DNA from: Selenomonadales bacterium
GTDB taxonomy: Bacteria > Bacillota > Negativicutes > Sporomusales > UBA7701
Direction of reading: 5' to 3'
Length of the DNA stretch: 64,000 bases
Assembly: GCA_029975165.1 (NCBI GenBank)
Contig: JARKPR010000085.1
Coordinates: forward strand, 124,001-188,000
In this document: in pieces, positions 11,467 to 53,155 of the stretch
How positions within the stretch are numbered: position 1 is the first letter of the stretch
Layout of the letters: every line of letters begins with the position of its first letter
Position numbers and translations under genes: made by a program
Notes under the pieces: model-generated
The model's input: only the letters and a program-made list of their open reading frames with translations
Told to the model about the DNA's origin: nothing
The model's database searches: none

Positions 11467-11545
11467 TCCGGCGACAGGAAATAAATAGCCAGGGTAGAAT
11501 ATAATGGTATAAGACAGGGAATAATACAGGGGAGGAGGGTGTCCC

Positions 11546-40991: not shown

Positions 40992-41020
40992 GAAGGATAT
41001 GTCGCGTTAATGTCGAATTG
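40992..41020 (+). promoter_or_regulatory. Sigma-H promoter of spo0A with overlapping 0A box
   Basis: GAAGGATAT (40992-41000) fits the sigma-H -35 RnAGGAwww completely; after 11 bases GTCGAATTG (41012-41020) fits RnnGAATww in all but one position. TGTCGAA (41011-41017), an exact 0A-box core, overlaps the -10, which would let Spo0A~P control its own gene. Confidence 0.78.
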
Positions 41021-45630: not shown

Positions 45631-45837
45631 ATGATCGTCGGCATCTCACGGCGAACTTTTTCTCGGCGCGCCAGATTTTGTGTCCAGGTACTGGCGCTGG
45701 CTGTCCTGGTCCTGTATGTGCTGCCCAAGTTGTTGTGGTTTTTTTGGCAGTTACATAATCCGGAACCCAAAATACGGGATAACCAATTTATGGAAAAACC
45801 TCTGCGGGTAATATCCACAAATTGGGAAATAATTTAG
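45631..45837 (+). CDS. DUF4227 (YqzK-like) small membrane protein
   Basis: A 68-residue protein with a basic N-terminus (RRTFSRRARF), one membrane helix (about residues 18-40, VLALAVLVLYVLPKLLWFFW) and a short tail. It corresponds to YqzK/DUF4227, which sits between spoIIM and xerD in Bacillus too. Function unknown. GGGGCGAGGTGAAGGG precedes ATG 45631. Confidence 0.82.
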   Translation: MIVGISRRTFSRRARFCVQVLALAVLVLYVLPKLLWFFWQLHNPEPKIRDNQFMEKPLRVISTNWEII

Positions 45838-45867
45838 TTTACGAAAAAGATTAAAAAATTTATTATT

Positions 45868-45874
45868 TTCGACA
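45868..45874 (-). promoter_or_regulatory. Candidate 0A box upstream of xerD
   Basis: TTCGACA on the plus strand reads TGTCGAA on the minus strand, an exact Spo0A-box core, with an A-rich flank (TGTCGAAAA). It lies just upstream of the sigma-H -35 of xerD. Confidence 0.5.
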
Positions 45875-45881
45875 GGAAAAG

Positions 45882-45911
45882 AAAGGAAAACAGCCACCTT
45901 ATGTAGAATAA
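45882..45911 (+). promoter_or_regulatory. Perfect sigma-H promoter of xerD
   Basis: AAAGGAAAA (45882-45890) and GTAGAATAA (45903-45911) match the sigma-H -35 (RnAGGAwww) and -10 (RnnGAATww) in every specified position, with a 12-base spacer. Transcription would begin near 45918 with a leader of about 60 bases before xerD. Confidence 0.75.
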
Positions 45912-45977
45912 TTGCTTCCACATAGAAGAGGGCGCGACGATACCGGAAATTTTGCCAAGGAAAAAAGGGTGAAATGA

Positions 45978-46865
45978 ATGGAAGGTTACGTAAACGAGTT
46001 TATTCACTATCTTGCAGTGGAGCGGGGCTTGGCCCAAAACACCTTGGAATCATACGGCCGCGATCTGCGGCAGTTTCAGGCCTACCTGCACAACGGGCAA
46101 CTCGATTTCATCAAGGACTCCAACCGTAGCACCATTCTTGGCTACCTGAACAACCTGCAGACCAAGGGCCGGGCGGTTTCCACCATCTCCCGCAACCTCG
46201 CCGCCATCAAGTCGTTTTATCAGTACCTGGTCCGCGAGCGTTACCTGGAGAAAGACCCGGCCGCCCACCTCGAATCCCCCAAGCTCGAGAAGAAACTGCC
46301 GAAGATTCTCACCATCTCCGAGGTGGAGGAGCTCCTCAAGCAGCCGAATACCTTCCTGCCGACCGGGCTCAGGGACAAAGCGATGCTGGAGCTGCTCTAC
46401 GCCACTGGCATCCGGGTATCGGAGCTGATCTCGTTAAATATTTCCGACATCAACCTCGACATGGGCTATATCAAGTGTTACGGCAAGGGCGCCAAGGAAC
46501 GGATCGTGCCCCTCGGGTCGATCGCTGCCAAATGCGTCCACGAATATATCGGCAAGGGACGGCCCAAGCTCGTCCGTACATACGACGAACCGGCCCTGTT
46601 CGTCAACCACCACGGCAACCGCCTGACACGGCAGGGCTTCTGGAAGATAATCAAGAAATACGCCCAGGAGGCCAGCATCAACAAGGAAATCACCCCGCAC
46701 ACCCTCAGGCATTCCTTCGCCACCCACCTGCTGGAAAACGGCGCCGACCTGCGCTCCGTACAGGAGATGCTCGGCCATGCAGATATATCGACCACCCAGA
46801 TCTACACCCATGTCACGAAAAACCGGCTTAAGGAAGTGTATGACAAAGCGCACCCCCGCGCATGA
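45978..46865 (+). CDS. xerD: Tyrosine recombinase XerD
   Basis: A 295-residue tyrosine recombinase that resolves chromosome dimers at dif with XerC. The N-terminal SAM-like domain ends near residue 105. The catalytic set is Arg146 (ATGIRVSEL), Lys170/173 region, His241 and Arg244 (HTLRHS), His267 (LGHADI) and the nucleophile Tyr276 (TQIYTH). The xerD-deoB-pdp-dacF-spoIIA order matches Bacillus, which supports XerD rather than XerC. A sigma-H promoter and a 0A box lie upstream. Confidence 0.93.
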   Translation: MEGYVNEFIHYLAVERGLAQNTLESYGRDLRQFQAYLHNGQLDFIKDSNRSTILGYLNNLQTKGRAVSTISRNLAAIKSFYQYLVRERYLEKDPAAHLESPKLEKKLPKILTISEVEELLKQPNTFLPTGLRDKAMLELLYATGIRVSELISLNISDINLDMGYIKCYGKGAKERIVPLGSIAAKCVHEYIGKGRPKLVRTYDEPALFVNHHGNRLTRQGFWKIIKKYAQEASINKEITPHTLRHSFATHLLENGADLRSVQEMLGHADISTTQIYTHVTKNRLKEVYDKAHPRA

Positions 46866-46896: not shown

Positions 46897-48072
46897 GTGT
46901 TTACGCGCATCGTTACCGTCGTGCTTGACAGCGTCGGCGCCGGCGCGCTGCCGGACGCCGCCGAATACGGAGACCTCGGGACCGACACCCTGGGGAACAT
47001 AGCCCGCTGCCATGGCGGGCTTTTTTTGCCTACCCTGGCTAGCCTTGGCCTGGGCTGCATTAGGAGGCTCGAAGGCGTGGCCGCCGTGGACAAGCCTTTG
47101 GCCAGCCATGGGCGCATGGCCGAAGTCTCCAAAGGCAAAGATACCACCACCGGCCACTGGGAGATGGCCGGTTGCCCGGTTTTCAGGCCGTTCCCCGTCT
47201 TTCCCGGCGGCTTTCCGGCCGCCGTCGTCGCCAGGATCAGCAGCCTCACCGGCCGGCAGGTCATCGGCAACAAGGCCGCTTCGGGCACAGAGATAATCGC
47301 CGCGCTCGGCGAAGAACATCTGCGGACCGGGGCGCTCATCGTCTACACCTCGGCCGACAGCGTCCTCCAGGTCGCCGCCCACGAAAGCGTCGTCCCGGTG
47401 GACGAGCTGAACGCCATCGGCCGCCGCCTGCGGGAAGAGGTCTGCCAGGGCGACTACGCCGTAGGCCGGGTCATCATCCGCCCCTTCGTCGGCTCCCCCG
47501 GCGCCTTCGTGCGCACGGCCAACCGCCACGACTTCAGCCTCGAGCCGCCCGCGCCGACTGTCATCGACCGCCTGAAAGCCGCCGGCCTTATGGTCACCGG
47601 CGTCGGCAAGATCGGCGACATCTTCGCCGGCCGCGGCCTCACCGCTTCGTATCCCACCAAATCCAACGACCACGGTATGGAAACGCTGGCCGGACTTGTC
47701 CGCGAAGAACGCCGCGCCGGCCTCATCATGGCCAACCTCGTCGAATTCGACAGCGTCTACGGCCACCGCAACGACTGCCGCGGCTACGCGCGGGCCCTCG
47801 AAAGGGTGGACGGGCAGCTGGCCCTTCTCTTGCCGCTGCTGGCCGATGACGACCTGCTCGTCATTACCGCCGACCACGGCTGCGATCCTACGACACCCGG
47901 CACCGACCACACCCGCGAGTACGTGCCGCTGCTGGCCTACGCCCGCGGCCGGCCGGGGCGCGACCTCGGCGTGCGGGCCACCTTCGCCGACCTGGCGGCC
48001 ACGGTGGCGGAAAACTTTGCCCTGGAGCCTCTGCCTTATGGCACGAGCTTCCTCGGCGACATTGCGGGGTGA
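46897..48072 (+). CDS. deoB: Phosphopentomutase
   Basis: A 391-residue alkaline-phosphatase-superfamily enzyme interconverting ribose (or deoxyribose) 1- and 5-phosphates. It shows VVLDSVGAGALPDAA at the start, the catalytic threonine in GKDTTTGHWEM (near residue 85), VGKIGDIFAGRG, and the metal-binding ITADHGCDPTTPGTDHTREYVPLL. The start is GTG 46897, 8 bases after AGGGAGAG; the frame is open upstream into xerD but that part is a shadow. It is followed 4 bases later by pdp, which supplies its substrates. Confidence 0.95.
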   Translation: MFTRIVTVVLDSVGAGALPDAAEYGDLGTDTLGNIARCHGGLFLPTLASLGLGCIRRLEGVAAVDKPLASHGRMAEVSKGKDTTTGHWEMAGCPVFRPFPVFPGGFPAAVVARISSLTGRQVIGNKAASGTEIIAALGEEHLRTGALIVYTSADSVLQVAAHESVVPVDELNAIGRRLREEVCQGDYAVGRVIIRPFVGSPGAFVRTANRHDFSLEPPAPTVIDRLKAAGLMVTGVGKIGDIFAGRGLTASYPTKSNDHGMETLAGLVREERRAGLIMANLVEFDSVYGHRNDCRGYARALERVDGQLALLLPLLADDDLLVITADHGCDPTTPGTDHTREYVPLLAYARGRPGRDLGVRATFADLAATVAENFALEPLPYGTSFLGDIAG

Positions 48073-53126: not shown

Positions 53127-53155
53127 GCAGGAAAAATTTTCCTTATGGCGAATTA
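53127..53155 (+). promoter_or_regulatory. Perfect sigma-H promoter of the spoIIA operon
   Basis: GCAGGAAAA (53127-53135), an 11-base spacer and GGCGAATTA (53147-53155) match RnAGGAwww and RnnGAATww at all specified positions, as expected for spoIIA. No exact 0A box core was found in the 70 bases upstream. Confidence 0.8.

Follow-up and report, generated by a model that had tools for sequence, protein, structure and literature searches.

Within the 64-kb window, by which we mean the whole stretch of DNA that was analyzed, a gene for a XerD-type tyrosine recombinase is found in the order spo0A, spoIIM, a 68-aa open reading frame (ORF), xerD, deoB, a gene for pyrimidine-nucleoside phosphorylase (pdp), and a gene for a dacF-like carboxypeptidase, followed by the sporulation genes spoIIAA and spoIIAB and a gene for a SigF/SigG-type sigma factor (Table 1). 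The recombinase scores well above the TIGR02225 cutoff of 329.6 bits and also just passes the XerC model TIGR02224 (344.9 versus 335.15). Its R, K, HxxR, H, and Y residues, which we take to be the catalytic residues of XerD, align with PDB entry 1a0p, and its closest matches among the named loci come from Selenomonadales metagenome-assembled genomes (MAGs; 98% identity) and a Sporomusaceae MAG (96%), so that the genome presumably belongs to a member of the Negativicutes close to Sporomusaceae. Relatives of the 68-aa ORF recur 5′ of xerD in many Negativicutes loci, and DUF4227 itself occupies that position in loci L226 (fur, DUF4227, xerD) and L238 (spoIIM, fur, DUF4227, xerD), presumably the order of fur, DUF4227, and xerD in Bacillus subtilis. 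The genome encodes SigH (TIGR02859 over its cutoff, E value of 2.9e-113; G000:C17:11497-12093). No dif site was found in its 100 contigs with one Firmicutes-like dif pattern at up to three mismatches.

Sigma-H promoters follow the consensus RNAGGAWWW-N11/12-RNNGAATWW, the AGGA and GAAT cores of which agree with the motif in the main text of a study of Sporomusa sphaeroides KIAC (PMC12456013). Upstream of xerD, the nonamers AAAGGAAAA and GTAGAATAA are separated by 12 nt and form an element (45882-45911) that, as the original prediction had stated, matches at all specified positions; the match is far above chance. Equally as predicted, an exact TGTCGAA lies just upstream, 7 nt 5′ of the -35 nonamer; the binding site of Spo0A, the 0A box, is given as TGNCGAA with the core TGTCGAA (PMC3485338). 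The further claim that the same promoter class occurs at spo0A and spoIIA was right, the sigma-H motif being perfect at spoIIAA and having one mismatch at spo0A, but at both genes a 0A-box-like heptamer overlaps the -10 element instead.

Table 1. Features of the xerD region and comparison sites within the 64-kb window
Feature	Position	Strand	Remark
Additional perfect sigma-H match	11474..11502		Inside long minus-strand ORFs
Sigma-H-like site before spo0A (comparison site)	40992..41020	+	One mismatch
68-aa ORF in the DUF4227/YqzK position	45631..45837	+	Itself without a Pfam or NCBIfam match
Spo0A (0A) box TGTCGAA	45868..45874	-	Exact match, read from the sequence; TTCGACA on the plus strand
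Sigma-H -35 nonamer	45882..45890	+	Every specified consensus position matched
Sigma-H -10 nonamer	45903..45911	+	Every specified consensus position matched
xerD, tyrosine recombinase	45978..46865	+	ATG at 45978; TIGR02225, 403 bits; PDB 1a0p (XerD), E value of 2.2e-76
deoB, phosphopentomutase	46897..48072	+	NF003766 and TIGR01696 over cutoff
Intrinsic-terminator-like hairpin with T-run	47001..47027	+	Inside the deoB frame
Sigma-H motif before spoIIAA (comparison site)	53127..53155	+	Perfect

Searching both strands of the window with spacers of 11 and 12 nt returned three perfect matches, those at xerD, at spoIIAA, and at 11474, compared with none in five first-order resamplings of the window. 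Beyond the match at 11474, a plus-strand aldo/keto-reductase-like ORF begins 298 nt further on, and the match may be due to chance or may be a distant promoter. Across the genome (4.19 Mb) there are 14 perfect matches with the 12-nt spacer and 38 with the 11-nt spacer, whereas the pattern read backwards gives 1 and 0, respectively. For 44 of the 52 sites the locus could be retrieved; by a loose test, an ORF of at least about 50 codons starts between just inside the site and 300 nt beyond it in 41 of the 44. Forty of these 41 ORFs were scanned and 32 had a Pfam family, including SpoVS, a STAS protein (spoIIAA), and a sigma-70 factor with sigA-type regions, as well as an MreB-like protein, RuvC, and an amidase. 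In Clostridioides difficile, spoVS, spoIIAA, and sigA2 are listed as sigma-H genes (Table 3 in PMC7438776). The excess over the backwards control, together with the names of the genes behind the sites, suggests that many of the perfect sites in this genome are real. For comparison, 13 of 30 spoVS upstream regions, with paralogues mixed, carry a site with at most one mismatch.

To evaluate conservation, as the original prediction had proposed, the 250 nt upstream of xerD were scanned in Negativicutes. Our sample of 150 genomes contained XerD in 76 (E value of ≤1e-103) and Spo0A in 45; the 76 loci scanned derive from 75 of the XerD genomes (G055, in which the match begins at residue 40, was left out) and from G006. 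Among 41 Spo0A-positive genomes, the best site was perfect in 27 and had one mismatch in 8, two in 5, and three in 1, the last being G006, in which xerD is split. Hence, 35 of the 41 have at most one mismatch, where first-order resampling gives 2.6% (0.1% for perfect sites). The 35 Spo0A-negative genomes comprise 4 with a perfect site, all from one genus of family f17, 5 with two mismatches, and 26 with three or more (resampling background, 0% perfect and 1.0% with at most one mismatch). Counted by family, a site with at most one mismatch occurs in 13 of 17 Spo0A-positive families. Five Negativicutes families are Spo0A-negative, three of them represented by single genomes, and such a site is present in one of the five and absent from the other four. 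Because the Spo0A-negative XerD proteins outside f17 have diverged (<50% identity over the stretch compared, with one unmatched), loss of the promoter there is inseparable from change in the gene. When the Spo0A-positive sites are aligned, with G006 dropped, positions 1, 3, 4, and 5 of the -35 element (A, A, G, and G) and the GTnGAAT of the -10 element are the same in 40 of 40, an identity that is partly by construction given that the alignment is anchored on the best match. The T at the second -10 position is also invariant, although the search consensus does not require it.

Two further observations concern individual Negativicutes. The f17 genus with the perfect motif before xerD (L170, L171, L172, and L174) is also represented among the named loci by L106, where SpoIIM and DUF4227 matches are absent between a PHP-like gene and xerD. 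Three small genomes of 1.6 to 1.7 Mb (G032, G039, and G050) encode Spo0A and lack a match at the level of XerD (best E values of 1e-18 to 1e-34); dimer resolution there must depend on another recombinase, unless the gene is missing from the assembly.

The motif extends beyond this class. A phylum-level sample of 398 genomes contained XerD in 245 (E value of ≤1e-108) and Spo0A in 345, and from the 245 we took 90 loci, 30 best scoring and 60 hand-picked for family spread. After L269, with 13 bases upstream, was dropped, 89 loci from 58 families remained, of which 12 have a perfect site, 27 a site with one mismatch, 23 with two, and 27 with more. Accordingly, 39 of 89 upstream regions have at most one mismatch and 50 have two or more, against a resampling background of 1.5% (0.04% perfect); neither the complementary strand nor the reversed text has a site with fewer than two mismatches. 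Of the 58 families, 31 include a genome with no more than one mismatch, and 36 of the 39 sites begin 46 to 116 nt before the reference point, which is set 18 nt before the profile match rather than at the annotated start. Two of the four Spo0A-less genomes in this sample have the motif, perfect in G369 and with one mismatch in G359, where it lies near the start at -30. A collection of 80 named loci, 78 of them with upstream sequence (L058 and L105 are without), overlaps partly with the genome samples, and the counts were never summed. Here the best site is perfect in 32, has one mismatch in 30, two in 14, and more in 2. Sites with at most one mismatch occur in Anaerospora, Propionispora, Pelosinus, Lucifera, Sporomusa, Tumebacillus, and Pelotomaculum; two Thermincola and five Aneurinibacillus loci have one mismatch, and the third Thermincola and the sixth Aneurinibacillus locus have two. 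Four of five Brevibacillus loci and two Paenibacillus-type loci have two mismatches, and Brevibacillus fluminis has four.

As a control, 13 hand-picked xerC upstream regions were searched with the same consensus, and one has a one-mismatch site. We also scored all upstream regions with a weight matrix built from the complete C. difficile sigma-H table (40 rows), which covers genes with lowered expression in a sigH mutant (PMC7438776); this matrix is not wholly free of the consensus because the rows were aligned with it. Scores above 99% of the null were obtained for 37 of 41 Spo0A-positive and 4 of 35 Spo0A-negative Negativicutes, 44 of the 89 phylum-level xerD regions, and 0 of the 13 xerC regions. 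The xerD site in the window scores 21.8, compared with 18.4 for spo0A, 18.0 for spoIIAA, and a training median of 17.3. A matrix from 28 hand-picked rows gives 39 of 41, 4 of 35 (all f17), 46 of 89, and 0 of 13; the 12 rows left out include the well-scoring CD1317, CD1498, and CD2447. Given the motif match, its conservation in the class and the phylum, the matrix scores, and the near-empty xerC control, xerD is, on sequence grounds, very probably a sigma-H gene, and we are highly confident that a functional sigma-H promoter precedes it.

The 0A box was examined in the same 40 anchored Spo0A-positive Negativicutes. Measured from where the -35 nonamer begins, the plus-strand form TTCGNCA is exact at an offset of -14 in 10 genomes (G000, G001, G002, G004, G008, G010, G015, G030, G038, and G040), which span six families and include four members of the genus represented by the window. 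Within one mismatch, the box is present at this offset in 16 of the 40. Elsewhere between -45 and -1, a single offset, -4, has the box within one mismatch in as many as three genomes, and in none of them is it perfect. The sigma-H motif and the box therefore stand in a fixed phase in these genomes, and it is likely that xerD responds to Spo0A in the genome studied here; to judge from the sites, it is probably a Spo0A gene in some lineages.

Several other readings of the promoter must be weighed. TTCGACA could be bound by a factor other than Spo0A, or could be an AT-rich promoter element, with Spo0A not acting here. In keeping with this, the exact box is absent from 30 of the 40 Spo0A-positive genomes, and 24 have at least two mismatches at the offset; an exact box in a quarter of them, at one offset and in six families, against a background of 0.011% per position, makes such a reading unlikely. 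That the sigma-H match is itself due to chance, or marks a sigma-A promoter, is hardly credible. The sequence TAGAAT (45904-45909) does match the sigma-A -10 hexamer TATAAT at five of six positions, yet the AGG and GAAT of the sigma-H elements are kept in all 40 anchored genomes, whereas the third -10 position, the A that makes TAGAAT here, is mostly G or T (18 genomes each). Moreover, sigma-A-type pairs with at least 9 of 12 matches occur in 15 of the 40 genomes where 12.2 are expected, and the xerC control stands against both possibilities. A candidate for a vegetative promoter that would pair with the sporulation promoter, as at spo0A, exists as TTTACG-N17-TATTAT at 45838-45866 and is unsupported; because such pairs are at background over the 40 genomes, we do not claim a sigma-A promoter upstream.

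The promoter might instead serve the genes downstream (deoB, pdp, and dacF, towards spoIIA), with xerD merely the first of them. The distance from xerD to deoB, mostly <130 nt in named loci with a DeoB match, is compatible with this, as is the fact that dacF and spoIIAA follow xerD in many named loci. However, of 14 named loci in which up to 5 kb downstream gave no DeoB match, 11 keep the motif, which hence goes with xerD. In addition, spoIIAA is preceded by a perfect sigma-H site of its own, and the reading frame of deoB contains a constrained terminator-like hairpin. Counting duplicates, this hairpin is seen in 18 of 90 deoB loci, with 11 distinct sequences. Among five members of the genus, codons 34 to 44 of deoB are the most synonym-constrained such stretch among conserved residues, with 9 of 10 conserved-residue codons identical compared with 41% on average. 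The hairpin may keep sigma-H transcripts from the genes beyond. We regard service to the downstream genes as quite improbable, and the suggestion in the original prediction that deoB-pdp nucleoside salvage is coupled to the onset of sporulation is not favored.

Where the gene order is Bacillus-like (L226 and L238), DUF4227 and xerD adjoin without a gap, and the closest sigma-H matches show two and four mismatches, respectively, as expected of background. In C. difficile, xerD may follow CD1221, a gene for a membrane protein. CD1221 is listed in Table 3 of the C. difficile sigma-H study with a ratio of 0.5, and the promoters described there for spo0A, spoIIAA, spoVS, minC, and ftsZ share the -35/-10 pair and the spacing seen at xerD; the same table contains genes for cell division and the chromosome (ftsZ, minC, and a Spo0J-like protein) but does not name xerD (PMC7438776). 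The same promoter class, as an AGGA/GAAT motif, was mapped by differential RNA sequencing at 322 transcription start sites in growing S. sphaeroides KIAC, a member of the same class of bacteria (PMC12456013); “xer” is absent from the main text of that study. The string is likewise absent from the main texts of PMC7438776, PMC4358009, PMC3485338, PMC3738446, and PMC4028888. The XerC/D-family gene recV (CD1167), which going by its name is not xerD, is listed as sigma-E controlled (PMC3789822). As a XerD-type recombinase, the protein resembles the B. subtilis RipX/CodV-dif system (PMC5357621, PMC7515245). In line with the original prediction, we found no description of xerD or ripX as a sigma-H or Spo0A gene in the literature searched, the scope of which left aside supplements and primary regulon papers. 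Sigma-H control of xerD appears to be conserved in many relatives and not to have been described in that literature.

The dependence on sigma-H and Spo0A, the timing, and the purpose that we infer for the promoter can be combined into one model, to which we assign a probability of roughly 0.75. RNA polymerase with sigma-H would transcribe xerD from the element described. The predicted start is at about 45916-45918, which leaves a leader of about 60 nt, and a large share of the transcript may terminate within deoB. Spo0A~P, bound at the 0A box centered near -46, would help recruitment in this genus and some other families. XerD would then rise with sigma-H and Spo0A~P at the transition phase, before polar septation, which would allow chromosome dimers to be resolved at dif ahead of the SpoIIIE-driven transfer of one chromosome into the forespore. 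The link to the onset of sporulation made in the original prediction is upheld as regards the phylum-wide sigma-H motif and the 0A box in phase, and its purpose in sporulation is unproven. For that purpose, taken by itself, we put the chances at just short of even.

A real sigma-H promoter could also belong to a broad growth- or transition-phase factor that has xerD among hundreds of targets, its link to sporulation being incidental, a reading that we hold to be a little under an even bet. In S. sphaeroides KIAC, besides the many start sites with the motif, SigH is raised on H2/CO2 with the cell-division category enriched (PMC12456013). SigH was found in 149 of our 150 Negativicutes (E value of ≤1e-20; 136 over the curated cutoff), against the 45 with Spo0A, and the xerD motif occurs in six Spo0A-less genomes (the four of f17 and two of the four in the phylum sample), which also speaks against a role in sporulation only. 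Because a sigma-A-type promoter upstream is not above chance, sigma-H may serve xerD in ordinary growth too. B. subtilis xer mutants reportedly do not show the effect on sporulation predicted by one model (PMC7515245). Against a broad role stand the exact 0A box in fixed phase across six families and the absence of the motif from most Spo0A-less Negativicutes families, as far as three single genomes and diverged XerD proteins allow.

Sigma-H control of xerD could be an ancestral part of the Bacillota endospore program that disappeared in the lineage of Bacillus, which would explain why the model organism has not revealed it. On this view, which we hold to be somewhat less likely than not, dimer resolution would be stepped up shortly ahead of the asymmetric division, and ruvC, with its similar conserved promoter motif, would be a partner. 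A phylum-wide sigma-H promoter on xerD suggests that selection outside Bacillus tied dimer resolution to sigma-H, which bears on the question of a particular danger from chromosome dimers when a chromosome has to be pumped across the polar septum; several models coexist for the cohesion of termini in sporulating B. subtilis (PMC7515245). For many uncultured relatives, the xerD promoter further provides a conserved marker for sigma-H.

A perfect sigma-H-like motif likewise precedes the start of ruvC in this genome, outside the window (G000:C36:94691-94720). In a sample of 30 of the 55 genomes with RuvC (L310-L339), 11 upstream regions have a site with at most one mismatch, compared with 1.1% expected, and 9 of the 11 sites lie at -52 to -60. 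All 11 carry GTCGAA in the -10 element, which in this genome reads TGTCGAA.
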